A stretch of DNA of 64,000 bases. It comes from Myrmaecium sp. VS I D KN 1 (lineage: Eukaryota > Ascomycota > Dothideomycetes > Valsariales > Valsariaceae). A program made the position numbers and the translations under genes. Positions within the stretch are counted from its first letter, which is position 1. Every line of letters begins with the position of its first letter. This document shows positions 9,351 through 55,600 of this stretch, in pieces. The notes beneath the pieces are model-generated. The model had not been told where the DNA came from and did no database searches. It worked only from the letters and a program-made list of their open reading frames with translations. Location of the stretch: NCBI GenBank assembly GCA_019775845.1, contig JADQAV010000002.1, forward strand, positions 2,604,001 to 2,668,000, given 5' to 3'.

Positions 9351-9949
9351 AGTTAAGTACCGCTTAACCGGTACTAGATTTAGTAAGGAGAACTTTAATA
9401 CTTATTAATAGTTTAATTAATCCGGTTAATTACCTATACTAGCTATATAAATAACGGACTTTATAATTATACTATTAGTAATTAATACCTCTACCGTAAT
9501 TATAAATCTTAAGGGTAGGCCTAAGAATCGCTATTAATTATTTACTTTTAAACTCCCTACCTCTCGTAGTATTATAGGAGTAAGAAATAGAGTAATACTA
9601 GCTAGCTAAATAACTTAAGTATTAACTTAAGTATTTATTAACTCTTCTTTAACGCTACTAACGTTAGATATACTATATATATTTAATTTAAGTACTCTTT
9701 CTAATATTAGAAGTATTTCTAGCTTATAGAGCTTATAGCTAGTAGCCTTATAAATAAGGCGAAAGTATAGGTAACTTAAAGAGTTTAAAAATAAACTAAA
9801 GGTATATATAGAGACTTTAATTATTAATAAGGAAACTAGTAAATATATAAAGCTCTTAAATATAATTAAGGTAGAGTAATAAAGTAAGAAAGCTTTCTAA
9901 TTTATATACTTTTTTATAGCTAAGTAACTACTTAAATAGTATTATAATT

Positions 9950-10044
9950 TTAATAGGGTTAGACCCTAAAATAGCTTATTAATAAGATTAATCTAATAAG
10001 ATTATATTTTTTAGTAAAACCTATATATATAAATAGTAATTCCC
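9950..10044 (-). repeat. Right terminal inverted repeat of the MULE
   Basis: Reverse-complement partner of 7521-7615 with 92 of 95 positions identical by eye. The outer end reads ATAGTAATTCCC. Confidence 0.93.
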
Positions 10045-10052
10045 TAAATTAA
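10045..10052. repeat. Target-site duplication, right copy
   Basis: TAAATTAA immediately after the right inverted repeat, identical to 7513-7520. Confidence 0.85.
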
Positions 10053-10230
10053 GCCTACAGGTTCTTTTAACTTATATATATACAAACTTTATATTCTAGA
10101 GATTTAAATATATCCGTAATTACTTTAAATAAGATATTAGGCCTAATATAAGACGCCTAAGAGTATTAGAAAAAGTATCTTAGTTATTTAAGTACTACTA
10201 AAACTACGACTATTTACTCTTAGACGCCCC

Positions 10231-10491
10231 TATGATAGTTTTTAGTTTTCTACTAGATGGGGTCTAGTGTCTGCAGAATACTACTGTCGGTAAAGGGGAG
10301 TCTGATCATCATGAGATAAACCCAAGCCATTTCCCGTTAACTTCTTCTGTCATTTTCTTCTTTCTCTCCTCCACAAACGTCCAAGTTTATCGTCAGTCCT
10401 ATTTGCTTTTCGCTTCAAATGTTCCAACTGGCGGCTGTCGTTCACGGGCGCGTGGTACGACGTACTGCGGACATGCACCCCCTTCTCGTTC

Positions 10492-10527
<36 letters not shown>

Positions 10528-10721
10528 CGCGCGAAGGTCGCACCTGCGTCCGATAACACGGCGACGACGACCACCATTGCTCTACCTAGTAGGTAACTTT
10601 CAAGATGTGGTGAGTACCTGATTACATATTCCTTCTCGGATGGAACATTCTATCCAGCATCATCATCATCATCATTATTCTTCTCCTTCGACCATCACGA
10701 CGCACCTTCGCTCGCCGTCTG
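10231..10721. other. Upstream region of the transcription-factor-like gene
   Basis: Normal composition returns at about 10230. A (CTG)n tract at 10497-10525 and a CAT repeat at 10656-10675 are present. No Cys6 zinc-cluster exon could be found here that would join the gene at 10722. Confidence 0.5.
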
Positions 10722-12900
10722 GTGCGTATCTCCCCGTTGACGATGACTTCCTCACCGTCACACAGACACAGACGCAGCCGCACGCAACGCAATCAACCCC
10801 CCGCGCACAACGACGGCAAAAAGATGTCTGCCGGACAGCCGCCGCTGAAGAAGCAAAGGAGAACGAAGGAGGAGGAGGTGGGCGCACCGGTGTCGGCGCC
10901 AGCCTTCGTCCAGCAGGATCCGGTGGCGTGGGATGCAGGTGCTTCTTTCTCTTCTCCTGCAACTGCAGACTACGATTTTGGAGCTTTTCCGGTTCTTGAT
11001 CCCGCTGTGGAGGCATGGATGGGTGTTGATGATGATGTTATTGCTGCTGCTGCTGCTGCACAACAGCTACCGCAACCACAGATGGCGTGGCCAGACCTTG
11101 CGATCCTGGACCAGTATTTCGACACTCCTCCGAACTATGAGAGTTATGGCGATGCGTCCCTTGACCAGCCATTCGGTCAAGGCATTAACATTCTCAACAA
11201 GAAAACCGATCAGCCACAGCAACAGTCACAGCAACAGCAACCACAAATGGCTTGGTCAAACCTTGCGATGCCGGACCAGTTTTCTAGCACTCCTCCGAAC
11301 TATGAGGCTCAACGCAATCCGTCGCGTCTTCACCCTGTCTGTCGTGGCATTGGCCTCTCTGATGAGCAAGTCGAACGGCTATTCGCAAGGTGAGTCCTTC
11401 TCTTTCCCCCTTCGCTCACGAGACTACCTACTCACCTGACTACCTACTTACCTCCGCTTGTCACCAGCTTTTGGGCCAACCAGCACATCTTCGTCCCCTT
11501 CCTAGACACCACCATAAGCGTAGCCGAGTACGAACGCCGCTCGCCGCTAGTGTTCTTATGCATCATCACCGTGGCCGCGCGCCGCCAGAAAGAGTTCGCA
11601 CACCTACTCGGCGCCCTGACTGCGGACCTGCCCACCATAGTCTGGAATGCACTCTGCCGCCAGCCCTGCTCCTTCGACGCCCTACAAGCCCTCATCCTGC
11701 TTATCCTTTGGCCACCCCCCACCGCCAGTACCGCCTCGGACATCTCCACCCTTTGGGCAGCGATGGCGTGGCAAATTGCCGTCGGGCTGGGTGTGAACCG
11801 GCCCGTCGATCTGCCGACGTCTCCGAACGAATGGGCCCGGATTAGGCTGACCGAGCGCCTATACCGTCGGGCAACGTGGGATGCGGTGCGGGTTGCGGTG
11901 ACCAGGTACGTCCTTTCTTCAGATCCGTGTAGCCGGGTTCACTCTAACAGTGAGACTTTCCAGCGTAAGCGTCGGTTTCGGGCTGCGATCCCCCATCTTG
12001 TTCGACGAGGACGATTTCGTGTTCGTCCCTCCCTATCGGAAATTTGACCCGACCCGTCAGGTGGCGCTGCACGCCATCATCGAGTTCTACCGCGCTTCGC
12101 CCATCCATAAGTCACTCCTCCCGGGCGCAGCAGCACCGTTGTGGAGCGTTGCGGGACAGACGGCAGGAGACCTGCTCGAATTGATGGACCGCACGGCCGA
12201 AAAGCTCGGCGGCTTCATCGAGGTCGCTGTCCCAGTTTCTCCTACACCGACAGATGACTTACTCTACTACTACCTCTGCGCAGCGCAACTCCATCTCCGG
12301 AGCTTCTCCCTCTTCGGCGACTCGCGCAGCCCCGCCTTCGACACGCAGATCCTAAAGCTCTTCGACGTTGCGGCCGCGCTGCTGCGCCGCGCCGTCACGC
12401 CGGTGTTTCCCTTGTACGTCCTGAACGGCCCGGCCTTCGTCGGCCAGACCCTCTTCTGCGCCGCCTTCACCGTCTACCACGTTTGGTCGAATGTCCACTT
12501 CGGCCAGCTGCTCGCCGCCCACCGGAACGACGAGACCCACCGGCTCCTCCTCGACGCCGTCGCCGCCTTCAAGCAGATGTCCCTCGTCCCGCACGACGTC
12601 CCCAGCCGCATGGCCGCCGTGCTCAACTACTTTCTCTCCTCGCACCTGGCCGCTACCGAGGCCAAGAGGAACGCCAACAATGACGACGATAACGACGACG
12701 CTGCCGCCGCCGCCGACGTGCGTCCCCGCATCAGCTGCCGCAGCAGCATGTCCCTCGTTTACGACCTCCTCCTTCGCTGGCGCAACCACATGCTCGCACT
12801 CGCCGGCCAACCTCCCACCGCCCCCGGGGTCTTTGACTCCTTCGGCTCGATCAATCTGTTTGAGGGCTTGGATTGGTTTTTTACTCCACCCTCGATTTGA
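10722..12900 (+). CDS. Fungal transcription factor (middle homology region), no zinc cluster seen
   Basis: Three exons, 10722-11389, 11468-11905 and 11964-12900 (introns of 78 and 58 bp), give 680 residues. From about residue 215 the protein reads like the fungal transcription-factor middle homology region (cd12148/Fungal_trans-like). It has LSDEQVERLFASFWANQHIF, a helix ending PTIVWNALC, a WQIAVGLGVNRP element, and across the second splice VSVGFGLRSPILFDEDDF, which resembles the family's LGRPxxIxDED motif. The N-terminus has a basic, nuclear-signal-like PPLKKQRRTK but no Cys6 cluster. It also carries a duplicated block, QPQMAWPDLAILDQ...TPPNYE and QPQMAWSNLAMPDQ...TPPNYE, separated by a Gln-rich stretch. 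The start could also be 10743 or 10824. Its targets are unknown. Confidence 0.8.
11078..11308 (+). repeat. Internal tandem duplication in the transcription-factor-like gene
   Basis: Two related ~66-bp segments at about 11078-11143 and 11243-11308 encode near-identical peptides (PQMAW...LDQ/PDQ...TPPNYE), separated by a CAG/CAA-rich linker at 11214-11242. Confidence 0.8.
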
Positions 12901-13399
12901 TCGGGGCGATGGTGGTGGTGGTGGTGGTGACAGGGGTTGAGCGTTTTTTTCTGGCGTGCGTTGCTGTTTGTTCTTTCCCTTGGGCATTGGGGTTTGTATG
13001 CTCTCTGTTGGCCTCGTGTTGGATGTTTCTTACGGGGATGGAAAGGGGTGTTGTGCGTTTCTGTCTTTGGCGAGGCTACCATATTACTGACTGCTTTGAG
13101 TTTATATCAGACATCGTGGCTCGGTGGCTGCACTGTCGGTAGGTTATATGTGCTTGACAGCCACTGTCACAACATTAATGAAATCAAACCCTGTCTAACC
13201 AATTCGACAGGAAGAATAAATATCTTATCAAACCAAACTTTTCTTTTCTTGAAAAGAAAGGAAAGAAATGAACCGAAGGAAAAGAAGTGTCCATATCACA
13301 TCTTATAATTTCAGAAAAGAACAGTCTCAGTACTCGCACACAGATCCACACACAGTCAACATAAATGAAACAACAAAAGGACAACAATCCCACCTTCCA
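12901..13399. other. Convergent intergenic region
   Basis: Lies between the 3' ends of the transcription-factor-like gene (+) and the Argonaute gene (-). It holds a GGT repeat at 12909-12928 and AT-rich, poly-A-like tracts at 13210-13320. No gene seen. Confidence 0.6.
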
Positions 13400-16300
13400 T
13401 CACAGCCAAAACATATGCCCGTCGAAATCCCGATGCCACGGGTTCTTCCGCGTCGACGTCGTCGGGGGCTTGGCGGCGGCGGCGGCGACCGCCTCGAGCG
13501 AGCGGACGTCGCCGTGCTCGGCGACGTGCTCGGCGCCGGCGAGGGCGAGGGCCTCGCGGGTGAGGTCGGCGGCGCCGGGGATGTCGATGGCGCGGGCGCC
13601 GGTCTGCCAGGGGCGGGTGTAGCAGCGGGCGCGCTCGCAGAGCCGGTCGGCCAGGTAGGCGGGCGCGACGTAGGAGACGCCCTTGGTGGCGCGGGGGTAG
13701 GCGTAGCAGAGGGCGTGGGTCTGGGAGAGGGTGTGAGTGGGAGGGGGGAACGGATGATGGTGAGGGGAGGAGAGAAAGGGGGGGAAACTCACAATGCTCT
13801 GGATCTGGTCGGCTTTCAGCTTCATCTCGTTGTGCAGGAGGAAGTAGTGGGCGGGGCGGGCGGTGCCCTGGATGGCCTGGTGGGACTGCAGGAAGAAGCT
13901 GAAGAAGGTCGGGTGGGTGATGACCCGATCGACGACGAGGCCGGGGGGCAGGTTCCCGTTCGCGGTGGAGCGCTCCGTCTGCCGGGCGAAGAGGCGGGTG
14001 TGGTGGCGCTTGGTGACGACGACGAAGGTGATCTTGACCTCGGCCGGCTTCTTCTTCTTCGCCGCCGCCGCCGCCCCCGCGGGCTGGTACCGCTTGTTCG
14101 CGAACGCGGCCAGTCAGCCCTTCAGGATGGCCTCGCGCTCCTTGGACCGGATCTCGGCGTACTGCGACTCGCTGACGCCGTCGCGATAGAAGAGGATCTT
14201 GCTGGGCAGCGCGGGTTGCTTCTTCTCCTTCAGCCGCCGCTCCGCGTACGCTTCGATGCGCTCTTTGACCATGTCGGCCAACTCTTCGATTCGCTGTTTT
14301 TTCCTGTCAGCTTGGGTGATCGCATGGCGGCACCCCCCTGGTGCTCCACTGTGGACCTGTACTCACCTCCTGACGACCTGCCTCATCCGGATCGAGCCCG
14401 AGAAGTTCACGTAGTCCTCGTCGACGCTGCCGACCACCCCCGCGATGGACGGGCAGCCTTCCGACGCACCTTTGCCTGGGTGCGTGACGTCGGCGCCGAG
14501 GATGATGGTGTCCTTCAAAGCCTTCAGGTGCATGTTCTCGAGCCGGTGCTTCGTGCCTTCGGCCTTGAGGTTGACCTTCAGCGCCAGGTTGGAGCAGAAC
14601 CGTTCTTGAGCTGGCGAGGGGGCGCTGAAGTTCAAGCCCACCAGCTTCTCCTCGACGCAGCAGATGGTCCGGACGCCTTTCCGGTCGCCCGCGGTCTTGA
14701 TTGCCGCGTATATATTGAGGTCCTTCCTTGGTAGGATAAAGACGACGATCACCTTGTCCCGGCCGTTGTTCTCGTCAATTTCCTTGGGTGCGGCGCCGAC
14801 CAATACAGCCTTCGGCACTATTTTCACCTCGAAGCCGGTATGTTTCGTGATCTGCTGCCGCAGGACCCGGGAAAACGCGTTACAATGCTCGGGGGTTAGA
14901 TCTGATGTGGGATTCGCGCCTTTTGCGGGAGGAAACATCACTTTGACAACCTTGAGCTCGAAGGCCATTTGACCGAAGGGACGCGGCGTGCGCGCGAATT
15001 TGAGGGCCTGAAGGTTCCAGGAAGCATCCTGCGGAACGGCGGTGGTATTGGCCAGGTATTTGATCGAGGGCGGTGGGAGGATGCGAGCTGGAATGTTGAT
15101 CAACTTGTCGCCGATGAGCACTCCCAGCTTGGCCTAGATGATGGATTAGCGGTGGTGAAGTTGAAAGGGGTGACCCACTACTTACAAGGCCAGCAGTGTC
15201 ATCTTTGATGCCCAGACGCTTTAAACCTTCTTCGACGATCAAATTGGCGTTCATCCATGGCGTTCGCATGGCAGCGGCGATCAAGCTGGTCGTCTGAACG
15301 GCGTTCAATGGCTTGGTGAATGGGCAATTCGAGTCTAGCTGCAGGAACTCCGGCGGTATCATCACAGGGGCTTTTGGGATGCCGACATTGATACACGGAA
15401 GGGTCAAGTTCTTGATGGGCAGTCTGAGCGTGGTCATGTAATAGTCTTGCACGCTTGTGCCCTGGCCTCCACCGCCAACGAACCTCTCGTCATTGGGAAA
15501 TTTGCCAACGCCAACAATCGTCTTCTGGCGGGCTTCCTCCGAATTACGATCGACATTGTTGCTGTTGCCGCGTGAATAGATCATGCGGACCCGGACACCT
15601 CTCAGAGTGCTCACGATGTCTTTTTGAGGGAACCCCTTTTTGATATACGCGAGGATGAACTCGGAGACGAGAATGGGCCGGAAGAAGATGCCAGTGACGG
15701 TGTACGTTGAGGAAGATCTGATCGACCCCGGGCCGGACCGAGGTGAAGTAACCGCGGACCGCGTTCAGGGTGTCGTCGAGGCCGTGGTAGCCTCCCTTGA
15801 CGTACCACTTGTTGGCACCAACTTGGACGTGATCATGATGCTTGGACAGGGCCCATCCCTGCACTATCGCGTTGAGAGCCCGAGTGATTGCAGCCGGGTT
15901 TTTGTCCGTGCTATCCGATTCATCTGATTCCACCAGCATGTCGGGTTTGTCTGATATAGAGAGCTTAGCGCGCCTCGTAATGGTGACCAGCGGAATTGTA
16001 TCAGAGACCCCAGATTGCTTGGTATATTCGACGTCTTGCAAGATAAGCCGATTCTCGTCGTCCTCAAAGAGCGGCTTCAACGTCCATACCGTCGTGTAAT
16101 CCGTGAACAGCTCGAAGTCGTCGGGTATGCCGAGTCTCGAACGAATTCCAGCAAACGCCAGTTTCTTCTCGCTGATCCGGCTGATCTTCCTGCTCCTTGG
16201 AGCGGATGGATCGAGGCTGAGCGCTCCGGTCTCGATCGTCTCGATCACATACTCATAGATCACTTCCAGTTTTTTCTGGATGGACAAGGTGACATAGTTG

Positions 16301-16521
16301 GCCGCAACACGGCATTCCTTCCCGTCTGTGCCGTAATTCGTGAATTTACGGAGAGTAGGATTTTCTTGGGATTCGTCGGACGAAGACTTGGACTTGTCTT
16401 TAGACTTAGACTCGTCTTTGGTGTTGACGATCGTGGTTTCGCCCTCGAAGACCGCATTTGCGTGGGCAGGAGGCGTGATCTGCTTCGGAAGAGGCAGCAG
16501 CTCACATGGAGGTGCAGACAT
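13400..16521 (-). pseudogene. Argonaute (QDE-2 family), with a frameshift and an in-frame stop
   Basis: Reads as a complete Argonaute of about 978 codons (RNA interference; guide-RNA binding and target slicing): N domain and linkers at 16521-15703, PAZ at about 15590-15186, and MID/PIWI to the C-terminus NPWHRDFDGHMFWL, typical of filamentous fungi. Introns are 15134-15185, 14304-14366 and 13721-13792. PIWI landmarks are LGADVTHPG, KILFYRDGVSES, KRHHTR and GTARPAHYFLL. Two lesions stand out. After IFLNV the frame shifts near 15701-15705 (net +1 or -2) in the conserved stretch leading to TGIFFRPIL. A TGA at 14114-14116 then sits where other Argonautes have Cys, between EAILKG and LAAFANKRYQP. 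The glutamate-finger position next to the first PIWI intron is not clearly Glu. It is either a decaying gene or has sequence errors; a cryptic intron over the TGA is possible but would delete conserved residues. Confidence 0.85.
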
Positions 16522-17405
16522 GCTGATTTCGTAGTTCTGTGAAGTCGGGACAGAAGAAGGCTCTAAGGTTGATGCAACGGGACTGAGAGCTCATATGAAA
16601 AGGAGCTGCGCCTGTTTGGTCCCGGGAAACGGAGGCAGCACAGTGTACCATTGCAAACAGGAGATGCGGCGTTCGAGCGCTCAATATTTATAGGCATAGA
16701 GGTCGAAGCGACACGGCATGATCAAAGCAGTCGAAGGAGCCCCAAGGGAAGAGATGCACGTATGCATGTCAGGAGGTGATCGGTATGATCAGCTGTCCTA
16801 CAGGAGGTAGCGCAATGACCTGGTTCAGCGACTTTGTCAGTACAAAGAATGGCGCAGCGGAAGCAGACAAACCATTCAAATATATCAGAAGCCACTGGAA
16901 AAGATCGTGTATATGTGACTTCGACATGGAAGGGCGTATCACCCATTTGATCATGGATCTGGGGAGATACTGCAAAACGAATAGCACACTGGGAACATTC
17001 CAGGAGGAAGGGCGTTCGGTCACCGTAGAGCGATGAATGGGCCAGGGAGAATTGATACGCAAGAGTAACTGACCCGGAGTCTAGCGCATGATTGATGCTC
17101 TCATTCGGAGCCCTCACGTTCACGTCAGGCAACGGCGGTGGCAATGTGACAGAGAAAGAACAAAGAAGGTAGTGGTATCATGCCTGAAACATCAAAGCTT
17201 TTTGTCGTGAAACTCGGTCTTTTCCAACCTTCATTCCTTGACCTGAGCCGACGAACTCGGTCCTGTCGGCCCTATTCGTACAGACGCCATTCCAGTTCCA
17301 ATATTTAGAACTTAAAAATTGCACCAGGAAATGCAGTCCAGATCCCTCAAGCCGACCCAGAATGGTATTCGTATTGAAAATTATCGTTCCAGAGTACCAG
17401 ACAGT
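16522..17405. other. Upstream region of Argonaute / 3' flank of rps19
   Basis: About 0.9 kb between two minus-strand genes: the Argonaute promoter plus the rps19 3' UTR. A 140-codon minus-strand open frame at 16722-17144 has no recognisable domain and is not called. Confidence 0.5.
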
Positions 17406-18136
17406 TTACTCCTCGTCCTCCTCGGCCTCGATGGTGGACATGGCAATGCGGTCCAAGTCACGCTGGCCGGACTGGGTGATGCGGCGGCCACCCTTCTCCT
17501 CATCCTGCTCGAGGACGCCGATCTTCTCGAGAGCCTGGAGGACCTTGCGGTCAACGGAGCCGGAAGCGTCGACGTGGTGGCTGGGGCGGGAGCCGCGGTT
17601 CTTGGTGCTACCGTGGGCCTTGCGGAGACGGCCGACACCGACGGTCTTGCGGACGTAAATGTGGCGAGCGACGGCAGCAGCACGGACGTAGAACCTGGGA
17701 GCATCCATTAACCACACGTCCATCTCCAGTCGCAGGTCGGTTCCCCTTACCAGTCAATGTCCTGAGGAGGAAGCTCCTTGGCGTGGCTCGTCTTGACAGT
17801 GTCTACCCAGCCTGTAGATAGAGACGCCTTGGTCAGCAAGCTGAATTTTGAGCGATCACCATATCCCCCAGTTACGGGATTCAGGCTGCGGCGGATTATT
17901 TACGAACCTGGGCTGGTGGAGAGTCAGATGATGTCCCAGAGTGAGTTTGCCGAGTGCATAAGAGACTTACATGGGGAGCTTTCCCTGACGCTTCAAGAAC
18001 TGAGCGTAGTTCTGGATGAACTTCTGGGCCTATTGATAACATCCTTGTCAGCCCTCCTGCCTCTCCTTCCACATAACGACTGCGATTGCATGCGGCGCAA
18101 ACGTACATCGACATCGCGAACGGAAACACCACCCAT
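17406..18136 (-). CDS. rps19: 40S ribosomal protein S19 (eS19)
   Basis: Small-subunit ribosomal protein required for 18S rRNA maturation, acting in the nucleolus and cytosol. Five coding exons are needed to give the conserved 147-residue protein: 18107-18136, 17971-18029, 17908-17912, 17751-17811 and 17406-17694. They encode MGGVSVRDVD, AQKFIQNYAQFLKRQGKLP, I-P-G across the micro-exon, WVDTVKTSHAKELPPQDIDW, then FYVRAAAVARHIYVRK to the acidic C-terminus EAEEDEE. The third exon is only 5 nt (CCCAG). Without it the frame from KLP into GWVDTVKT breaks. It is preceded by a CTGAC branch site and CACCAG, followed by GTTCGT, and the next intron has GCTGAC and CTACAG. The many small 5' exons are typical of fungal ribosomal protein genes. 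Confidence 0.93.
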
Positions 18137-18688
18137 TTTGGCTGATTGTTGAGGGATGGACGGAAAAGAGGATGGGTCGGTTGTCGAAGGTTGGGCGGCT
18201 CTCGGTCGGTCGTGGAATTGAGGGTGGAATTCGCGAAAGGCTTTTTGGTGTTGTTGCGCTCGCTTGTGGGTCGGAACAAAGAATTGTTCCGTGCGACTGT
18301 GCGCCAAGCCGCAACCTACCCGGCATTTTGCCAAGAACGCCGTTGTGATGTGCGCTTTAAGCGAGCGACACGCGAAGCGCAAAGCGTGTCAATGGAGTGA
18401 ATGGCTGCAGCGGAGTCAAACACAGCACGGAATATCGAGCGCATGCAATTCACAGTAATTAGGCAGAAAGGCAGTCAACGGCAAGAGAAGTATAATATAA
18501 TATGAAATTGGCGAAACTTCAAACCCTATGGTATACCAGCCGCGTTACTCCTCTCTATCCATATTGTATACCCTCGCCGAGCATACTCCAAACCCCGTGA
18601 CCGACATCCCAATCGCGAACTCCTCTCCATAGTGATTATGTCCATCAGGTAAGAAATAATCGAAGTACAAAGGAAAAAGCCCATCATC
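18137..18688. other. Upstream region of rps19 / 3' flank of the hydrolase-phosphatase
   Basis: About 550 bp. The first 250 bp upstream of the rps19 start should hold its promoter; no specific element was identified with confidence. AT-rich sequence at 18470-18540 may be the 3' end region of the next gene. Confidence 0.5.
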
Positions 18689-21009
18689 TTACAGCGTCGG
18701 GGCCTTCTTTAAACCGACGCAGTATCGAACATAAAGTGTATCGATGAAATGGTCGTGACGAATGCCGGGAGGTCGCTTGGTCCGGAACTCCTCGATGGCA
18801 TCCTGTAGCCTGTAACCAAGCCTCTCTACGAGGTAGGAAACGATGAAAAAGCCGGTCCGATTGAAGCCATAATGGCAGTGCACTCCGATGAGCGGCCTGT
18901 CACCAGCCTTCTCCGTGTCGACACCCTCTTGCGAAGCTTGCAGAGAGTCGATCAGCGCGATGAAGCTCTTCACCTCATCTACAGATGGCGGTAGTTTCGA
19001 CACGGTAGGGAATTTCCGGTACGCAATCCCGCCTGCTTCAAGACCTTTTGGGTCATAAACAGGGCTTTCGTGGCTGATGTCAACCACCGCCCGAATCCTG
19101 CCCTTCCACTCCTGAACAAAGATCTTCGGGGAATGCCGGTCATCCACTTCTCGAAGCGTCTTCATTGCACGGAAGGTCCCAGCAATCGGTTCTGAGACGG
19201 GCTGCACAGCTTGCCACTTGGCTAGGTTCTTCACATCCCATTTCCCCTCGGTAGACAGGTACTGCAGCTGCCAACCGAGCGAGAGTCGTTTGTCGATATG
19301 GTCAGCAAGAAAAGTACCGATAAGCCCCGCGAGGATGCGCGACGTTGATGGCGCATAAAGCAGCGCATGTGAAGCGGGCGCTGGGAGAATGGTGGATTTG
19401 AGAAGACGGCGCCGTGGATAGGGGCCAGGCACGTCCGAGATAGGTCGTTTGTCAGTATTCTCCTCGGACGATGACAGAGACGATTCGCTTTCAATGATGG
19501 ATTTGGCGGCGTCAAGATCTTTCTTGTCATCCTCCAGCCCTGCAGCGGCTTCGCCGCTGAGAGACATGTCCACAGGCGCAGCAGAATCCGGGATCGTCTC
19601 CGCCGTTTTGGGCTTACGGGCAACTGCTTTCCCTAGGTATTCAGCGATCTTGAATAACTCGCTGGGAGGTGTGATCGGGTCGGATTCGCCAGCTGCAAGA
19701 AAGATTGGAACATCAAGTCCTGCCCACGTTTCCTTTCCGGGAAGCCCGCCCGATGGAGAGCCACTTGAATAGTCCGGCAATGTCCCCGCTGCCATTCGTC
19801 TCCAGACAGGAGTCCTGCTCTGCGCATTGAAACGCAGCTGCAATTTCTTGGTTTCCTCCTCGGCATTGGGTCCAGTGAACCGCTTTATGCTGGCGCTGTC
19901 CAATCCACCCCTCCGGTCCCAGCGGCGCCAGATATCGAAGATGGGTCCGGGGATCGCAAGCAGCCTCCTGAACTTGGCAACCTCCATAGCATGAGGCGGC
20001 GCCGCCTTCGGACATATCCCAACTAGACCGAGAACATGACGAGAAATCAGATGTGAATACCGCGATGTTGAAGACGCCAACAGAGCCGCGAGAGAACAGC
20101 CCATACTGTGTCCAATCAGTACCACACCCTGGCCATGGGCGCCGTCTCGATGCTCCTCAATGACTACCGCAAGTAGCTGCGCAAGAGCATCGACAGTATA
20201 TGCTTCCCAAGCTTTTGGAGAGAATTCTGAAAGACCACAGCCGGGCAAGTCAATACTGAGACAGGGAGCGAGGTTGACAAGGCTGATAAGAATAGGATGG
20301 AACTGCGCGACCGATCCGCCGAGGCCATGGACGAAGACAAGCAGTGGCACCGGTGCGGGATCCGATGGGAGCTTATCTCCTTGAGGATGCGGACGATAGA
20401 AGGTGCGAATGGCCGGGTAGGTATAGCCTGTCCCCGGGACAGTGTAGGATCTGACCGTAGAGTGCTTTTTGAGCAACCCAGGGTCTGTAGCTGCGGCGTC
20501 TGGCTCGCGATTAGCTTATCACTGTAGCATAGTACCTACACCGTAGCCTTCCCGTAGGATTCACTAGCATATCGCGGTGGTTTGAAAAAAGGAGACATAA
20601 AATGGCTTGGTTACTTACCCGTGCCAGAGTTGACGGAACCGTCGCTTGTGGATGCAATCGAGGCGGAGCTGCTGCCCTTTTGCTGCTTGTGCTTCTTTCT
20701 CAGAAACAACAAGCCCGGAACCAGGCCACATGTTCCCATCAACGTCACCATGTCCCAAAGTGTGGGTTGATACCAGCGGGCAAGGCTGAGATGACCAGAT
20801 AGACGCTGAAGAGGAAGCACAACGGAAGAGAACAACGCTTCGTGGAGAGATGAGGCGTTGAACAGCGCGGCGCGGCTGGTGAGGTTGGTAGCATGCTCGG
20901 AGGTAGACTCAGTGATCTCAGCAGAAGCAACCGCGGCTAAGAGAAGCAGCGATAGCCCAAAAGATGAGGCACGGCAGAAGCCATGGCCGTGCGAATGAGA
21001 CTGCATCAC
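18689..21009 (-). CDS. Alpha/beta hydrolase fused to a dual-specificity phosphatase, with N-terminal signal and membrane segments
   Basis: Two exons, 20619-21009 and 18689-20484 (intron 20485-20618; CAG at 20492-20494 is an alternative acceptor), give about 728 residues. The N-terminus has a signal-like hydrophobic run (SFGLSLLLLAAVASAE) and, near residue 95, a second one (LMGTCGLVPGLLFL) followed by basic residues. An alpha/beta hydrolase fold follows: oxyanion-type HGLGG, the nucleophile elbow GHSMG near residue 254, and AAGESDPITPP carrying the likely acid Asp. The C-terminal quarter is a dual-specificity/tyrosine phosphatase with the P-loop HCHYGFNRTG (Cys-x5-Arg) near residue 665 and a conserved PPGIRHDHFI region. 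A linker rich in Ser, Glu and Asp (about 430-480) joins the two. Hydrolase-phosphatase fusions are found in other filamentous ascomycetes; the substrate of either half is unknown. Confidence 0.88.
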
Positions 21010-26925: not shown

Positions 26926-28197
26926 TCATGATCGCTGCGCTTTCGCATCCTCTCCCTCCTTTTCCACCTTCCCATCCTCCCCTTCTCCCTCTCCCTTCTC
27001 CTCCTCCTCCTCCTCATCCAAATCCTCCAACGGAAACGTCAAAATCGCCGCCACATTGCCCAACGCCTCCAGGCGCTTCCCACTCTCATGCAGCGAGCTC
27101 AGCACGCGGACCTCGCCCCCCTCCACATCCCGCACGCGATCCACCAGCCGCACCCAGCGCTTCCGCTCCGCCACGTCGGGGGCGCGAAACAGCGCGTTGC
27201 TGATGAGCAGGACGCCGCCGCCGGGGCCGACGGCGCCCTTGGCGACCGCGCGCTCCACCTCCCGGGGCCCGTACCAGGCCCGGCCGTCGTCCCGACGCAG
27301 CAACTCCATGAACCGGTCCATCAGCGCCGTCTCGCGGGCGTACTTGGTGTCGGCCAGCTTGCTCGCCACCGCCGGGCTGGCCAGGACCTCGGTCAGGGCG
27401 TGCAGGTAGCCCGAGCTCGCGTGCGCGACCAGGACCCGCGGCACCAGCGCCCGGAGCGGCTTGCTGTTCGTGCTCGTCGCCTGCTCCTTCATGTACGTCA
27501 GGAAGCCGGTCGCCGTGAAGCCCGGGCTGGCCAGCAGCAGCGGCGCCTCCCCGCCCGCGGCCGCGGACGTCGACGTCGACGTGTTGCCCAGGTCCATCTG
27601 CCGGATCAGCGTCTGCAGGGTCGTGTCGAAGAACTTGGTGAGGGCCTTCTGGTGGGCTTCGATGCCGCCCCGGCGCTTGCGCGGGATGGACACCTCCACC
27701 TTCTGGCGCAGGATGGTCTGGTGCTGGGTGATGAGGCAGATGTGCGCCAGCCCTTCCTGCATCACGACGGCCCACAGCTCGACCTTGCGCCGGGGGTCGG
27801 TGGCCTCGCGGAGGATCTCCAACGCCACGCTGTCCCACCCCCCCTCCCCGCCCTTCTCGATCGTGAACGCGCGGTGGAGCTCGAGGTCGAGGGTGTGGAA
27901 GCCGCCCAGCTTGACCAGGTCGTTCTCGGCCGCCACCCGGCCCGCCACGTGCAGCTCCGCCGCGCCCGCGTCGAAGTCCGTCCCCGTCACCCGGATCGTC
28001 AGAGTCGTGTGCACCCGCCGCCCCACCGTGCTGCCCGTCCCCGTCGTCTCCGTCACCCGCCGCACGGCCGGCCCCCGCACCAGGTCGCCCGGCTGGATCA
28101 GGTTGTACGCGTGCCACATGTCCTCCGGCTCCTCCGGCAGCAGCGTCGCGAACCCGGACCCGTCCTTGCTGTCGATCGATTGTTTGGTGAGCCGCAT
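26926..28197 (-). CDS. dom34: Dom34/Pelota ribosome-rescue factor
   Basis: With Hbs1 it splits stalled ribosomes in no-go and non-stop mRNA decay in the cytosol. Intronless, 423 residues. The start MRLTKQSIDSKDGSGFATLLPEEPEDMWHAYNLI (first 20 residues are diagnostic of the Sm-like N domain) is followed by eRF1-like domain 2, with ELWAVVMQEGLAHICLI and the basic loop PRKRRGG, and domain 3, with LLISNALFRA, VRVLSSLHESGKRL and the terminal AAILTFPL. As expected for Pelota there is no GGQ motif. A Glu/Lys-rich tail of about 25 residues ends the protein. Very GC-rich coding sequence keeps long shadow frames open on both strands here. Confidence 0.95.
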   Translation of the reverse strand: MRLTKQSIDSKDGSGFATLLPEEPEDMWHAYNLIQPGDLVRGPAVRRVTETTGTGSTVGRRVHTTLTIRVTGTDFDAGAAELHVAGRVAAENDLVKLGGFHTLDLELHRAFTIEKGGEGGWDSVALEILREATDPRRKVELWAVVMQEGLAHICLITQHQTILRQKVEVSIPRKRRGGIEAHQKALTKFFDTTLQTLIRQMDLGNTSTSTSAAAGGEAPLLLASPGFTATGFLTYMKEQATSTNSKPLRALVPRVLVAHASSGYLHALTEVLASPAVASKLADTKYARETALMDRFMELLRRDDGRAWYGPREVERAVAKGAVGPGGGVLLISNALFRAPDVAERKRWVRLVDRVRDVEGGEVRVLSSLHESGKRLEALGNVAAILTFPLEDLDEEEEEEKGEGEGEDGKVEKEGEDAKAQRS

Positions 28198-28595
28198 TGC
28201 GATTGACGATGACGCTGATGGTTTTCTATATCGGTTCGTATGCAGTCGTTGATGGGGGAGCGCAGTGGTAGTTCTCTTGTCGCGTAAGGAAGCGCGGAGG
28301 CTGAGCAGGCCTGGATGTCGGGTGCGTGCGTGTTGTGAGTGAGTAGTAATGGTGGGGATATGAGAGGCTCGGATGATGTCGTTGGAAGATCTTTGATGCC
28401 CGGCGCGCAGTGCAGTGACGTGGTGGGGTCCGATAAGATAACAAGGAGCGGGGCGGTATTCCTCACGCCGTGTCCTCAGGCTCCCAACTGGTAGAAAGAC
28501 CTCCTGCCACCTCGAGATCTATCATAACTAAATATTATTTTTTACTCTGTATACAGAATACATATCCTCCCCCACAATCCCCTCACAATCGTAGG
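28198..28595. other. Promoter of dom34 / 3' flank of the GH89 gene
   Basis: About 400 bp between two minus-strand genes; nothing specific recognised beyond an AT-rich patch at 28515-28560 that probably belongs to the GH89 3' end. Confidence 0.5.
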
Positions 28596-30980
28596 CTACC
28601 ACTTCCCCACCAACCCCCCCACAACCTCCCTCAACTCACGCTCCATTCCCATCCCCGTCGCCTCACCCCCATCCTCCACAGTCCCATTCCCCCACTGCCA
28701 CCCCTCCTCAAACACCCCCAGCTCACCCTCCAGTTCCGTCTCATTATACGCCCATACACCCACGCGCTCGAGGTACCCCAGAAAGATCCGCCAGCGAGGG
28801 CGGTAGTACCCGCTCACCAAGCCAGCCCAGCTCTTGGACGCGTAGTCGCTGATCTCGCCGTCGGGGCCCCAGAGGGTGATTTGGTTGCGGGCGTTGTAGG
28901 TGTACAGGTCGGTGGTGGTGGTGGTGTGGGCGGCGTTGTCGTTGTCGCTGCCAGCCCAGGCTCGCGCGGCCGCGAGCCAGGTGTCGAGCCGGAACGCCGG
29001 GTTGGTGGCGAGTACGGCGTCGAGGTCGGTGAGGAGGTCGAGGAGTTTGGTTCCGTGGGCGTGGAGGGTAGTGGTGGTGGTGGTAGTGGTGGAGTTGGAG
29101 TTGGACGTTGTTTCGGAGCCGTTGTATAGCTGGACGAGGTCAGTGTAGAGGGCCACGAAGACGTTGGAGAGCACCTGGCGGGTGACGTCCACGAGATCGT
29201 ATGCGTATGCTGGGTTGGCGTAGAGGGTGCCGTCGGCGCCGCCTGCGGCGATGAGGTGCTCCCATGCTTGCCGCAGCAGCGCCGGGTCGTAGGGGATGTT
29301 GGTCGGGTGGTGGCCGGTGCGGTCGACGAGTCCTGAGAGCCGCGGGGACAGCTCGAAGATGGACTTGTACACCGCGAGCGCGGTCGTCAGGTTGGTGTTG
29401 TTGTAGGCGGTGACGCGGAGGATGTCCCATGCGGCGTAGAGATCGGCGGAGGGGGTGTTGTTGGCGTAACGCCGGGTCACCCAGTCGTGGAAGTACGTTT
29501 CGACGTCGATGGGAGAACCCGACCACGCTTGATCCAGAAGCAGATCGTACACGATCTCGTTGCCCTCCTGCCCTTCCATCGTCAACCCGAACCCCACCAG
29601 CGAGCTCGAATTCCCCAAGGCCTTGATCGGGTTTTTGGTGATGTTCTCCACCTGGCCATACAGCCCCATGTTCCCGCCGTAGTCATGCAGCTGGCACCAG
29701 ATCCATGGCTTGCCGAAGTAAGAATTCGTTCGCTGCCACTGCGGTTGCGATTCGGAGAAGAGGTCCAAGATCAGGAAGTCATCGGGCTCCTCGACCCCGC
29801 TCAGGTAGGCCTCAATCCGTTCATTCGTCCAGAAATCCTCGCTGCTGAAGAAGAGCCAACCCTGCATGACCCACACAGCGTCCTCATCGGCAGCCTTGAG
29901 GCTTTGGTGGGTGTTGTAAGTGACGTTGCGGAGATACTCGAGGTCTCCCGAGGCAGGATCATTCTCGTTGTACTGATCCAAGGCGTAGAAATGCGTAACG
30001 TTTCCGTACGCCTGGATCTGCTTCTTGATGAAGCTCTCTTGGAGCTGTGAAAACAGGGGGTCTGTCGGTTCGAGGAAGGTATCGTTGGTATACCGCTCGG
30101 GGAAGCCATTCCACTGCGACGCTCTAACCGTGGTAGCATTCGGAGCCACCCGCGAAATGGCCTGTGGAACAAAGCCAGTAAACGCGGGAAGGATGGGCGT
30201 CATGCCCAACTCCACCATCCGACGGACGATCTTCTTCTGCAGCTCGAACTGGCCCTCGACCCACGCCTTCGGAAGGTCACCGCCCCAGGACCCTTGGATG
30301 TTCCCCAGCCGGTTCCAGGCCTGGAAAGCCGGACCGCTGAGGAAGGCGTAGATCTCCGGCTCCGTCAGCCCGATCTCGGTGAAGACGTCGATCAGGATCT
30401 TCTCCATCCCCACCCAGGCCAGCGGGAGATTGACTCCGCGCAGGGCGAGCCAGTCCAGCTCCAGTTCCCACTCTTCCCACGTCCACCAGGCGGTTGTGTA
30501 GGAGAAGGTGACTTGGTCATTCTCAGTATACGAATTTGAACCCACGTAGGGACCATGAAGCGCATCGAACATACCGGTATTGAAATGGTACCTCCACGGC
30601 ACCACACTCTTGCCCTCGATCGGCGTCACTACCGGCGGGAGCACCGCCGGCGCCAGGTGCAGACGACTCCCCACGCTCCACCAGATGTCGACATGCGCCA
30701 CATCCGTGAGATAGCGATGCAGACCGCTCGCCAGCGCGCTGAGGGAATTGCCCTCGATCTTCACGACGCCGTTGTCGTCAGAAACGGCGTACTCGTCTAA
30801 GGTAGTGTCGCTCGTCGCGGAAGCGTTCCGCAGCTCGAACGCGAACTGATCCGCATGTTGCGGCAGCCGCCTCTGCACTAGGTCGAGGATGCCTTGGACA
30901 GAGCAATCTGCAGCGGCCGCGGAGGATAGGACCGCAAGGACAAACAGGAATAGTGGGATAAATATGGACGGATAGCGCAT
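28596..30980 (-). CDS. Alpha-N-acetylglucosaminidase (GH89)
   Basis: Secreted or vacuolar glycosidase that removes terminal alpha-linked N-acetylglucosamine, related to human NAGLU. Intronless, 794 residues from the chosen Met. That start opens directly with a signal peptide (MRYPSIFIPLFLFVLAVLSS then AAAADC); an in-frame Met 17 codons earlier would put polar sequence in front of it. Domains are an N-terminal alpha/beta domain (about 25-110), a TIM barrel (about 110-450) with GVNLPLAWVGMEKI, GSWGGDLP and ALDQYNEND, then a helical C-terminal domain. The two catalytic glutamates expected for GH89 are present, in YNEN and in GLTMEGQEGNEIVYDLL. Several Asn-x-Ser/Thr sites and a Thr/Asn repeat (about residue 635) are visible. 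Confidence 0.93.
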   Translation of the reverse strand: MRYPSIFIPLFLFVLAVLSSAAAADCSVQGILDLVQRRLPQHADQFAFELRNASATSDTTLDEYAVSDDNGVVKIEGNSLSALASGLHRYLTDVAHVDIWWSVGSRLHLAPAVLPPVVTPIEGKSVVPWRYHFNTGMFDALHGPYVGSNSYTENDQVTFSYTTAWWTWEEWELELDWLALRGVNLPLAWVGMEKILIDVFTEIGLTEPEIYAFLSGPAFQAWNRLGNIQGSWGGDLPKAWVEGQFELQKKIVRRMVELGMTPILPAFTGFVPQAISRVAPNATTVRASQWNGFPERYTNDTFLEPTDPLFSQLQESFIKKQIQAYGNVTHFYALDQYNENDPASGDLEYLRNVTYNTHQSLKAADEDAVWVMQGWLFFSSEDFWTNERIEAYLSGVEEPDDFLILDLFSESQPQWQRTNSYFGKPWIWCQLHDYGGNMGLYGQVENITKNPIKALGNSSSLVGFGLTMEGQEGNEIVYDLLLDQAWSGSPIDVETYFHDWVTRRYANNTPSADLYAAWDILRVTAYNNTNLTTALAVYKSIFELSPRLSGLVDRTGHHPTNIPYDPALLRQAWEHLIAAGGADGTLYANPAYAYDLVDVTRQVLSNVFVALYTDLVQLYNGSETTSNSNSTTTTTTTTLHAHGTKLLDLLTDLDAVLATNPAFRLDTWLAAARAWAGSDNDNAAHTTTTTDLYTYNARNQITLWGPDGEISDYASKSWAGLVSGYYRPRWRIFLGYLERVGVWAYNETELEGELGVFEEGWQWGNGTVEDGGEATGMGMERELREVVGGLVGKW

Positions 30981-32111
30981 GATTGTGGACGAAAGCGAAC
31001 ACCTCGAACGGAGAGAGAATAAGCAATCCACTATTCAAACGTTTGATGAAGATGGCGGGGGGAGTAAGTATACATGCGTTACCGCACAGCTGGGGATGTG
31101 AGATGAAAAGAAGAGCAGCATGTTCGCTCGCTGCGTTCTCATTCGTCTCTTTTCCTCGTTCTCCTCATCCTTCCCCTCTTTCCACTCCCCCTCTGCCCTG
31201 GCAGGACGGGAAGCTGCAGGTCGCAGACGTCAACGATCGTCCTTGCTCGCGATTGACCGTCCCCCGACTTGGCGAACGCGGACTGGCCAGCGACGTTGCG
31301 GGCGTGCGGGGCGGACCGATAAGCCAAGCTTGCATGGATCCATGCATGGCAACATTAATGAAATCAGAGTATCTGTGGGCCATCATGGCACATCTCAGCT
31401 CGCTCCGCCGGGGTCAGTAATCATATGTACAATACCTCTATAAATCTATACATACCCACGAGCATTCGACCTGGTGAGTAGATCAGGGGCGAGGGTCCAG
31501 TGGCTAGTAGATATAGTAGTACCCCCCGCTGCCGGAGTGCGACTGCAAGGTCACATGGAATGGAAGAGGGGTTCTAAGGTTAGTAATCAGCTCGCGGGAA
31601 TCAGTGATCATTCCCCTCTCGTAAATACGATGAACGAGGGGACATATCCGTCGGCCGACCGAGCCGGAGTGCGGAGTTGACGGAGTAAGTTCACGGAGTA
31701 ACACCCCGCTTTATCTGATCCTTCCGCTCCGATGTCACCATCAGATAAGGATGAGGCCCCAAAGCAGCCTTGCAGTCCCTCCCAGCCGCCAATCACACAT
31801 CCTGCTGTCCTAGGCATCCGCTGAGAAAGGCAAGGGAAAAGAGTCAAGACGACCCGGGATCCGAATCGGTGCCTGTACTCCGCGCAATGGATCCTTCTCT
31901 GACTAGAACGAGTCCCGCTCTGTCTTGCCTGGGAGGATTCTGAGTAACATTCGATATGGATGTGGATGTGGATGTTTGCATATATCTGTGCCTGTCCCTT
32001 CTTCTTCTTCTCTTTTCTTCCCCTCTTCGCTATGACTCTCACGGTCCAATCGTGACACTTCGGTGAACTATTTTTTTCTTTTCCCCTTTATTCTTGTGTC
32101 GACCTCCAGCG
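30981..32111. other. Divergent intergenic region (1.1 kb)
   Basis: Carries the promoters of the GH89 gene (-) and the MFS gene (+). A TC-rich stretch at 31140-31200 and a C/T leader at 31998-32095 precede the two genes. GATGTGGATGTGGATGTTT forms a short tandem repeat near 31955-31977. No gene seen. Confidence 0.5.
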
Positions 32112-34636: not shown

Positions 34637-35655
34637 ATGTGGCCGTCGCATCGCTTCATCCCAATCGTGCTCGCCATCACGCACGCCGTGCTCGTCGTCT
34701 CCGACGCCACCGTGTCCATCGACGGGCAGCCCGGGTGGAGCGAGCAGCGGACCTGCGCGCTGAACTGCCTCGACCTGAGCACGTACCCGGGCTACCTGAT
34801 CGCCGAAGCGCTCTCCTGCACCGACACCACCCCGCCCAACAACGACTGCTTCTGCCGGCCGGACCTCCAGGCCGAGGCGGACGCCTACATCGCCAGCTGC
34901 GTGAACCGGGCCTGCGAGCGCAACGCCCGCGACGTCGCCACCGCCACCAGCTTGTACGACGCCTACTGCACCAGCGCCGGCTACACCCGGGAGGCCGTCC
35001 TGCTGACGACGACGACGTCGACCACCTCCAGCTCAGGTGCGTGGCCGCAATCCACCCTCCTCGCCGGCGAAGCGCGTCGGCATTTTGGGGCCGACGCCGG
35101 CGTCGTCGACCAGCGCGCGTTGGCGGCGGGGATCCTGGCCGCGTTGACGGGCGCCCTGGCCGTCGCGTTGTAAGAGTTGGAAGAAGAGAATGAAAACGCA
35201 AAAGGTCACGTCAGGTCTGAGACCCTCTCTTTTTCTTCACAGGTACCTCCACCTCTGCCACGACCGTGGCGTCACCGGAGCCAACCGTGTCTGCAGGCAC
35301 CTCGACGACCGCGTCGGCCGCATCGCCTCCTTTGACCTCGTTGGCGACTTCGGCATCTACGCAGCAGACCTCGCAGACGGCGGCGGTGAAGGGTTCATCA
35401 GACGGATCGTCGACCTCGTCGTCGTCCGGCAACAACGACGACGGAAACGGCGGCGGGGACGACCTGGGAGCCGGGGAGATTGTCGGTATCGTCGTGGGCA
35501 TCCTGGCCCTCCTAGTCGCCGTCATCACCCTGGTGATCAACTGGAAGAGCTTCCGGGAGATGTTAAGGAGTCGGTGGCAGCACGAGCGACCCGTCAGCCA
35601 TCCGCCGTCCGCGGTGTGGAGGGGCGGGGGGGAGTATGGGTCGGGGTATCGCTAG
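34637..35655 (+). CDS. CFEM-like cysteine-rich surface protein with single membrane span
   Basis: Exons 34637-35036 and 35243-35655 give 270 residues. A signal peptide (MWPSHRFIPIVLAITHAVLV) precedes a domain with eight cysteines: CALNC, LSC, DCFC, SC, AC and YC. The pattern resembles CFEM domains (heme or surface roles in fungi). A Ser/Thr-rich stalk, a Gly/Asp segment, a strong transmembrane helix (GEIVGIVVGILALLVAVITL) and a 35-residue basic tail follow. The intron (206 bp) is about three times longer than its neighbours. If retained it stays in frame and ends the protein at 35173 after a hydrophobic tail, RALAAGILAALTGALAVAL, that looks like a GPI-anchor signal (178 residues in total). 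Both forms look biologically sensible. Function is unknown; signalling or wall sensing would be speculation. Confidence 0.82.
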
Positions 35656-52630: not shown

Positions 52631-55600
52631 TCATCTCACCGATGCACCCCCTCCTCCCCGCCTCGGCCGTCCTCGTCTCCCTCTCCCAGAAGACGACGCC
52701 TTCACAACCTCCTCAGCCTCGCTCTCACTCTCGTCCGGGCTCGCGAAGTAATGGCTCCGCACCGCCGTCGCACTCTTGCGCGCGGCTTGTCGCTGGGGCC
52801 GTCGGCGAACGTTAACAGTTGTCGGGGCCTCCTCTCCTTCATTCCGGGCGGGACGCTCGTCTGCGTCTGTAGCGTGAGGAGGGTCATCGGAGGGATCGGA
52901 CGAGGCTGAGGGAGTTGGGCTCTTGCCGCGCCTGCGGCGAGCTGATGCCGTGGCGGCTTGTCGTCCGCGCGTCGAAGGCGTGCTGGTTGTCTTTCCTCGT
53001 CTGCTGGATGGTCGCCCGGCGCTTTTGGTGTTTGTCACTGCTGTGGTACCGGGCGCCTCGGTCTCGGAATCCAGATCTTGCGGGTCTCCTGGCGAGGTGT
53101 TCTGGCGAGACGCTTGTAGCGAGATGGGCGTCCGTATCGATGCGTCCGGGAGAGCGCTCTCCGCCTTGGGAGCGTCGTGGTCATCCCTTTCGAGCCGGAA
53201 GCGGCCGCTATCCGCATCACTACGGTCTTCATCTTCCTCATCGTCATGATCGAGGAGGAAACCCCCGCCGTATGCGGTATCTGCCGTGCCATCCTCATCT
53301 CTCATGAAACCGCCTTCTAGCTCCTCCTCCTCCTGCTCTTCGTTGCTGGGAGGGAGGAAGCCACCAGCGGCAGCGAACGGGTCATCATCCGCAACGCCGC
53401 CCTCAGGCAAGAAACCACCGGCCATGTCTTCCGCCGTGGACGCTTCTGGTTCGCTTCGTCGAGATGGCCCACCACTTTCAGGTTCCTGTTCTTCAGCGCC
53501 AGCCCCATAATCAGCTTTCACACGCGCCAAGATCTTCAACCCGGTCAACATCCTCTTCCACATGTGAAGCGCAGCCGCAACCCGTTTCGCCTCCTCCTTG
53601 CGCTTCCGGATCTCCTCCGCCTCGCGCCACGCGTCCCGCACCAGCCGCGCGTTCTCCTCCGCCACGACGACGCCGGTGAGCACCGGCACGGCCCGCTGCT
53701 TGCCGAATTCGAAGCCCGTGCAGGCCTCGGCGAAGTTGACGCCGAGCTTCTTGCAGATCTTCGCGGAGCCCTTGAGCGGGAGGTGGACGGCGCCCCGCGG
53801 CACCATGGACGGCACGTACACGTCGATGTTGCCGAAGGCGTTGCGCGGGATCCGGCCGTCGACGATGGGGTCCGGCACGATCCAGTCGGTTTGGAACTCG
53901 GCGTACAGCCCTTGCAGCAGCTTCTGGCCGGCGTTCTCCCGCTGCTGCTCCTCGATCTCGCGCTTCCGGTTGAGGGTCACGGCCCGGGCCGGCACCATCT
54001 TCAGCGGCTGCTCGCCCACCCGCACCTCCCGCCCTTCCTTGTGCCACGACTCGACCGTCTTGCAGGTCACCACGTCCTTGCGGAGGTAGACCGGTTCGTC
54101 CTTGAAGGTCCGGACTGGCTTTGCTGTTCGCAGGAGCGCCTCCTCCCGCCGCAGGTGACGCTCGAGCACGTAGTCGGCCGACACCTTGTAGCCTGCCAAT
54201 GTCTGCGGTATCTCTTCCACCCCAGGTTTGCCGGTCCCTTTCTTGAGCTGAAACGGCACCAAGTCACCCTCGTCCTCCAGACGGTCCGCGGTCGTGCGCC
54301 GGTTATCCGGCCGCGCGTACATGGACATGGCGAACTTGAACCAGTCATAGTGCTCATACCGCTTGACCTTCCCCCTCTTGTTGCGCACCGGGACTTTCTC
54401 GACCGGCATCCGGAAGCCCTTGGTTTTACCGGGGAGCATGTGTCGCTTCAGATAGCGCACGGTAACGTCCTTGGCCGTGTTGTCCGACGCGTACGCGATC
54501 ATGTAGGCGATGACTTGCTTAGCCTTCTCCGCCGGCTTACCGCGGGGTTCGAACGCGCTGAAGTCTCCCACCGTCGTCGAGGCGATCAGGGAGGGTGATG
54601 CGCCGACGGATTGGGTGGAGACGGCGATTGGAGCGTTCGTGATGGGCGAGATCACTTCGGTCCAGTAAGTAGGGTAGGGAGGATCTTGCTCGTAGGGGTT
54701 TTTAGGCGGGGCGGGTTGGCTGGGAGGAAGAGAAAGCATGGAGTCGTCGGAATCCGAAGGGGGATCGCTAAGGTCGCTTGTAGAGCTCTCGTCCAAATCA
54801 ATGGGAGCCATCCGTGACCCGCGAGGGGTGGTGTCCTTCTTAGATGGCGTCGTGATTGGCTTGACCGGCGCCCCGAAGGCTGCCGTTTCATGTTTACCAG
54901 GACGTGTAGTATCTGGCGGAGCCGCCTGGGGCCTACGAGCTGCCTTTTTCGCGGTACTCGTGGCCGTTCGAATCTTTCCTTCCTCAGCCTTGCTCCATCC
55001 GAAACCGAGCGGCTGGAGACTAGCCACGAGCCTTGCCTCGACCCCTAAACCCCTGAGAAGCGCGGTGAAGAGCTGCGCCGCGAGATCTCTACTCCCTTCG
55101 CACTTCCTCGCGGCCTCTCTGAACGCGGCCAGGTTTTCGATTCGTTCCCCAAACCGGTCGATGTCTGATTTATCCGCGTGGTACGCTTTCATCTCTGCCC
55201 GGACCGCTGCAAGCGGTATGTAGCCTCGCTTGCGAAGACTGGGCGCGGTGATCCGAAAGCGTTTCTTCCAGTATGTGGAGAGATACTTGAGCAGGCGCAG
55301 AGTCGGATCTCCTTGGCTCAGGTTCGGGGTGCCCGCCGGCTCTGTGTGAGCGGAGGCAGGTCCCCAGTCGCGCTGTGATCTCGATGACTTCGCTTGAGAA
55401 GACTCCTTTGCATTGCCCTTGCCCTTGCCCTTACTACTAGATGAGGCCTTTCCTTTGGCAGCATTCTTTGTCCTCTTACCATCCGAAGTAGGTGCTTCAC
55501 GGGGCAGAAGGCCAACGTCCTTCTTCCACCTCTCCACCTCCTTCCGGCAACCCTCGCTCAGCTGCCCGACCAAGATTTCCTGCACCTGCTTATCGTTCAG

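Follow-up and report, generated by a model that had tools for sequence, protein, structure and literature searches.

Extra Argonautes that are truncated or dispensable have published precedents in other ascomycetes, as the consulted passages of the sources cited here attest. In Zymoseptoria tritici, two of the four candidate AGO genes (Mycgr3G90232 and Mycgr3G25632) encode truncated, very weakly expressed proteins (passages of PMC6620828). In Cryphonectria parasitica, which likewise has four Argonautes (agl1-4), antiviral silencing needs agl2 only (passages of PMC4182546), and its extra Argonautes are on record as truncated or dispensable (passages of PMC4182546; PMC7763443), while the transcripts of its rdr4 contain premature stops (passages of PMC4182546). 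Fungal Argonaute loss is also described for Cryptococcus gattii VGII, where both AGO1 and AGO2 are absent (passages of PMC4556806).

The gene considered here lies in a stretch of 64,000 nt, hereafter the window (G000:C10:2604001-2668000), of a genome of 25.66 Mb in 66 contigs. It differs from each of the above systems. In Z. tritici the N-terminal domains are missing, whereas here the full length is present and is broken by point lesions; for C. parasitica, the consulted passages of PMC4182546 do not present agl1, agl3 and agl4 as broken genes; and in place of the absence of both genes in C. gattii VGII, one of four is broken here. The Neurospora crassa protein QDE-2 is the nearest solved relative of one of the other Argonautes of this genome (L001, QDE-2-like, E 7e-102), a match that makes the fungus probably an ascomycete; exon 2 of the broken gene, too, finds its best PDB match in QDE-2 (E 7.5e-16). 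The broken gene nevertheless represents a diverged second class: over MID-PIWI it shares 33% identity with L001, and the part that follows the stop codon gives better scores with plant AGO10 and human AGO2 than with QDE-2. No description of this gene was found in the portions surveyed of the published work on Argonaute pseudogenes, frameshifts and premature stops, RNAi loss, readthrough and selenocysteine.

Organization of the Argonaute locus

An earlier note on this DNA had reported an Argonaute gene with a frame break and an in-frame TGA, and both lesions are found where it had placed them (Table 1).

Table 1. Features of the Argonaute locus (window coordinates) and the evidence for each
Feature	Positions	Strand	Evidence and remarks
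Degenerate Argonaute gene	13400..16521	-	Start ATG 16521-16519, terminal stop 13402-13400; Piwi family match from whole-genome search
Exon 1, first frame: N-terminal region and linker 1 (ArgoL1)	15703..16521	-	Pfam ArgoL1 E 2.5e-5; BLASTP L001 E 6e-8, L003 E 6e-6, both stopping at '..NV'
Frame break, net -2 or +1	15699..15705	-	Different-frame homology either side; codon-usage switch; gene-structure program at 12 and 18 bits
Exon 1 continued, second frame: PAZ	15186..15701	-	Pfam PAZ E 1.7e-9; BLASTP L003 E 9e-10
Intron 1, 52 nt, GTAAGT..TAG	15134..15185	-	GT-AG, in phase
Exon 2: linker 2, MID, start of PIWI (ADVTHP)	14367..15133	-	Pfam Piwi E 3.4e-13; ArgoL2 below cut-off; PDB QDE-2 and AGO2 matches
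Intron 2	14294..14366	-	Canonical donor 14366 and branch-supported acceptor 14294 give 73 nt, out of frame
Exon 3: PIWI, YRDGVSE, in-frame TGA	13793..14303	-	Starts at 14303 with 63-nt splice, else 14293; Pfam Piwi before TGA E 5e-9, after E 1e-25
In-frame TGA, then CTG G	14114..14116	-	Sequence inspection, paralogue alignment
Intron 3, 72 nt, GTGAGT..CAG	13721..13792	-	GT-AG, in phase; no in-frame stops inside
Exon 4: PIWI end and C-terminus, Asp in fourth tetrad place (AYLADRL)	13400..13720	-	Pfam Piwi positions 267-300, E 0.034, below cut-off; paralogue alignment

The PIWI domain is recognised by Pfam in four of the six pieces of the gene, above the cut-off in three of them, and the whole-genome search matches it at E 1.2e-55. 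PAZ and ArgoL1 are likewise recognised, while ArgoL2 (E 2.9e-5) stays under the curated cut-off. ArgoN is recognised in all three paralogues and goes unrecognised by Pfam in the broken gene, where a BLASTP match to L003 nevertheless spans residues 42-273. With ArgoN unrecognised and the catalytic Glu absent from its column, the statement in the earlier note that the whole architecture and the key PIWI motifs are present was too strong. The codon statistics are normal: in a codon-preference scan trained on six neighbouring genes, the bits per codon are positive in all six segments, with GC3 at 0.67-0.97. GC3 starts at 0.67 in exon 1 and rises along the gene until it reaches 0.97 in the part of exon 3 past the TGA, a value higher than in any of the six measured neighbours (0.67-0.86). 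Among the other genes of the window, those for an eRF1-domain protein and an alpha-N-acetylglucosaminidase (NAGLU) stand in tandem on the minus strand at 26929-31034, their open frames about 80 bases apart.

Frame break, stop codon and second intron

The frame break, between the N-terminal linker and PAZ, is borne out by both homology and codon usage. In BLASTP, the alignment of the upstream frame with L001 and L003 stops precisely at '..LNV', the last codon of which ends at 15703, and the same frame extended past this point finds no match better than E 1.4; the downstream protein, read in another frame, matches L003 from '..FF' (~15686) into PAZ and L001 at E 2e-9. Since L003 has six residues between 'NV' and 'FY', the net change amounts to minus two or, equivalently, plus one. 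Independently of homology, the codon-usage scan switches frame between the 90-nt windows starting at 15801 and 15741, and a purpose-written gene-structure program sets a frame step at 15705 when a lesion is made to cost 12 or 18 bits.

The TGA, too, is in frame, and coding goes on beyond it: 237 open codons follow (24 of them being intron 3), and Piwi homology and high coding scores flank it on either side. At the aligned position L001 and N. crassa QDE-2 have Cys, whereas L002 has Trp and L003 has Phe. Cys is the likely ancestral residue judging by this alignment, though other ancestors are possible.

A third lesion probably lies at the junction of intron 2. This intron has one canonical donor (GTGAGT at 14366). 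From its CTGAC branch motif it is 3 nt to the end of the in-frame acceptor (14304) and 13 nt to the end of the AG that follows (14294). Such a motif is present in 21 of 28 introns inferred from coding frames alone (a pool of the window, further stretches and selected loci, which contains this gene and some overlapping loci), and its distance is 9-19 nt in 17 of the 21, the others being at 3, 6, 22 and 60. A chaperonin gene on contig C28, inspected by eye, splices not at the AG that lies 4 nt beyond its branch A but at the one 12 nt beyond. This preference for distance, together with the same choice in the chaperonin gene, makes 14294 the best-supported acceptor, and the resulting intron of 73 nt joins the exons out of frame at the very place of the PIWI tetrad Glu. 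The in-frame alternatives are 14366-14304 (63 nt), 14374-14294 and 14377-14294, of which the latter two (81 and 84 nt) rely on the weak donors GTCAGG and GTCGTC. The catalytic tetrad of slicer-type Argonautes is D-E-D-H/D, and the Glu is present in its column in L001, L002 and L003. In the broken gene, the first Asp (ADVTHP), the second Asp (YRDG) and the Asp in the fourth place are kept and the Glu is missing: in the alignment with the paralogues the column holds Gln with the 63-nt splice, by inspection it holds Val or Gln with the 81- and 84-nt splices, and it falls out of frame with the 73-nt one. On the splice-site preference of the 28 introns, the out-of-frame junction is a probable lesion.

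The locus is, in our judgement, probably a pseudogene of recent origin, belonging to a set of four Argonaute paralogues in a filamentous fungus that has RNAi parts elsewhere in its genome. It would have been inactivated by no fewer than two small mutations independent of each other, the frame break and the TGA, with the intron 2 junction as a probable third, and redundancy among the other Argonautes may have relaxed the selection upon it. Translation would proceed for about 273 residues in frame and, having lost the frame, would end about 50 residues later at the stop codon 15546-15544 (about 325 in total), and the predicted product, devoid of PAZ, MID and PIWI, would be non-functional. The lesions would then belong to the organism and not to its assembly. 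That the coding statistics are still normal in every segment and that there are only two or three lesions points to recent damage. Indels arise at about a tenth of the rate of substitutions, and 3.3% of single substitutions in this gene create a stop; one stop and one or two indels would accordingly suggest a neutral divergence since inactivation of roughly 1%, with several-fold uncertainty. The coding signal is fully kept on both sides of the lesions, as recoding or sequence error also predict.

Sequence error, splicing and recoding as alternatives

The gene could instead be intact in the organism, the frame break, the TGA and the intron 2 mismatch being artefacts of assembly or base-calling in the draft. 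This alternative, which the earlier note had voiced as two sequence errors, is possible but disfavoured, and we rate it as unlikely. It would account for coding signal and conserved residues that are intact right up to and beyond each lesion; the surroundings of the TGA are GC-rich (~65%), where base-calling may be worse; and an RdRP gene of the same genome (on C8, see below) also shows a lone unexplained frame break, making occasional errors conceivable. Against it, there is no long homopolymer run at the frame break or the TGA, the TGA would require a substitution error, and the two or three errors would have fallen within 2.9 kb of coding sequence, when the remaining coding sequence that was modelled, about 52 kb, shows no supportable break.

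This background sample comprised the window and five 10-kb stretches of other contigs, placed at five of 40 positions drawn at random on nine contigs of known length. At a lesion cost of 18 bits the program made three lesion calls in 55,221 modelled coding bases, namely the 15705 break and calls at 35427 and 53026; in this run the program closed a gene at the TGA and opened another one behind it. The call at 53026 falls inside an open Rad4 reading frame, and that at 35427, examined by eye, in a gene with an open frame and no Pfam match. The latter gene (34637-35655, with the program's frame step at 35427) encodes a small, secreted-looking, cysteine-rich membrane protein, which by eye we take to be CFEM-like. 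When the cost was lowered to 12 bits there were 12 calls in 54,057 bases, the frame break and the TGA both included; at 25 bits only the call at 35427 was left, the 15705 break having been dropped as splitting the gene was cheaper; and at 35 bits there were none. These counts come from a weak lesion detector of limited sensitivity, for which six genes of the window are also the training set. Five suspicious junctions picked for inspection from the chaperonin and tRNA-synthetase match tables (22 and 13 matches) proved by eye to be clean introns one and all. With so few other breaks in the background and such clean junctions, two or three breaks within a single gene are more simply accounted for by mutation, and error is the less likely cause. 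In the assembly of a single strain, error and strain polymorphism would look the same as fixed loss.

A different possibility, to which we give very little credence, is that introns hide both lesions and that a shorter functional protein is made. Splices that leave an open frame do exist on paper: six join the two frames across the break if the first anchor is taken and 29 if a later one is, and 49 remove the TGA in frame (with GT, GC or AT donors). However, every one of the six and of the 29 would sacrifice either the last part of linker 1 or the segment TGIFF..VSE. The TGA can be skipped in frame from a single GT donor, 14176, at the loss of everything from after YRDG to at least 14093; GC-AG or AT-AC splices would sacrifice as few as 11 residues, but at non-consensus sites. 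Thus, no enumerated GT-AG splice clears the frame break or the TGA without losing conserved residues; a GTACGT donor at 15805, considered as a GT-AG rescue of the break, was rejected on the splice enumeration and the gene models. The intron proposed in the earlier note fares no better: its GTACGC donor, given as near 14173, is actually at 14162, and with the acceptor TACCAG (14084) it would span 79 nt, which is not a multiple of three and shifts the frame, even though its sites score a passable 0.0 on a crude scheme that gives -4.0 to both 14366-14304 and intron 3. The accompanying warning that gene callers may hide the TGA as an intron is right in general, if not for the intron named. When forced to a single gene, an ab initio model adopts false introns at 15705-15660 and 14176-14084, the second of which removes the PIWI residues directly after YRDG.

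Equally hard to credit is a functional gene with recoding, in which TGA readthrough and a ribosomal frame change at 15705 would yield some full-length Argonaute. The sequence TGA CTG G does match the context of the UGA CU core readthrough motif, and in Ustilago maydis UGA CU suffices for efficient readthrough, with G at +4 in many cases (passages of PMC4207609). Yet codons beginning with CT make up 7.0% of the gene (68/975; 415/5678 in the six neighbours), and so the context is unsurprising; nor does readthrough of the TGA repair the upstream frame break or the intron 2 mismatch. An Rfam scan of the 64,000-nt window at gathering scores gave no match, and relatives were seen in none of the scanned viral contigs, while 12 pattern hits in prokaryote contigs included none that was confirmed. 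Repeat-induced point mutation (RIP) raises TpA/ApT and lowers (CpA+TpG)/(ApC+GpT), and it was rejected as the cause because these indices are 0.45 and 1.14 in the gene versus 0.73 and 1.12 in the window. Selenocysteine at the TGA was likewise rejected, there being no tRNA-Sec and no SepSecS match in the genome (the positive controls of both searches were prokaryotic), in keeping with the lack of selenoprotein machinery in fungi stated by the U. maydis authors (passages of PMC4207609).

RNAi genes elsewhere in the genome

The young pseudogene, as we probably have it here, stands amidst a retained set of silencing genes. The whole-genome search finds three other Piwi genes (L001, L002 and L003) without a stop inside their matches, together with RdRP matches at four loci and Dicer-dimer matches at three. 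Hence, of the recent loss of an RNAi component that the earlier note suggested, the recent inactivation remains the best reading, and what is lost is one of four paralogues and not RNAi. On contig C34, L001 is about 6 kb away from a Dicer-dimer match on the opposite strand; this Argonaute, on the plus strand, and the Dicer gene, on the minus strand, are arranged head to head at G000:C34 ~9,800-19,600 (L049, L001, L011) and are possibly a co-regulated pair. L002 (G000:C29:457142-461119) is a strongly diverged Argonaute with a lysine-rich C-terminal stretch and His, not Asp, in the fourth tetrad place.

The RdRP gene on C8 (L052 near 5283; G000:C8 ~1143282; the same gene as L006) has a frame break in its C-terminal part. 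Homology to L007 lies in different frames on either side, the down-frame matching at E 3e-7 and the continued frame nothing better than E 2.1. Of the 32 splices available on paper (GT or GC donors), those of at least 41 nt that delete little have GTTGTG or GTGGCT as donor, and none makes a convincing intron. A TGA within the same RdRP match was rejected as a lesion, since by eye a probable intron contains it. The idea that the C29 RdRP is broken was rejected as well, the five stops within its match looking, by eye only, like ordinary exon/intron change. Running the program over nine RNAi loci, two of them overlapping and the C29 RdRP left out, gave a single lesion, that of the C8 RdRP, in 33,573 coding bases at 18 bits; at 12 bits the count was four in 33,837. 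Frame breaks in two of 11 Argonaute, RdRP and Dicer-dimer loci are suggestive, though they come from one assembly and uneven inspection.

The pairing of a broken Argonaute and a broken C8 RdRP with an open QDE-2-like Argonaute and neighbouring Dicer invites the speculation, which we consider decidedly improbable, that one silencing branch is being dismantled or is regulated at decoding, where the leakiness of UGA-CU could give traces of product; taken furthest, it would have two RNAi parts that cooperate co-decaying (or being co-recoded) in one lineage. If the break in the C8 RdRP is real, the two genes would offer a testable case of the stepwise loss of one silencing branch. For the Argonaute itself, a young pseudogene would represent loss at the level of a paralogue within a retained RNAi system, caught early enough for its lesions to be counted, and it illustrates how automatic gene models could conceal a broken gene.
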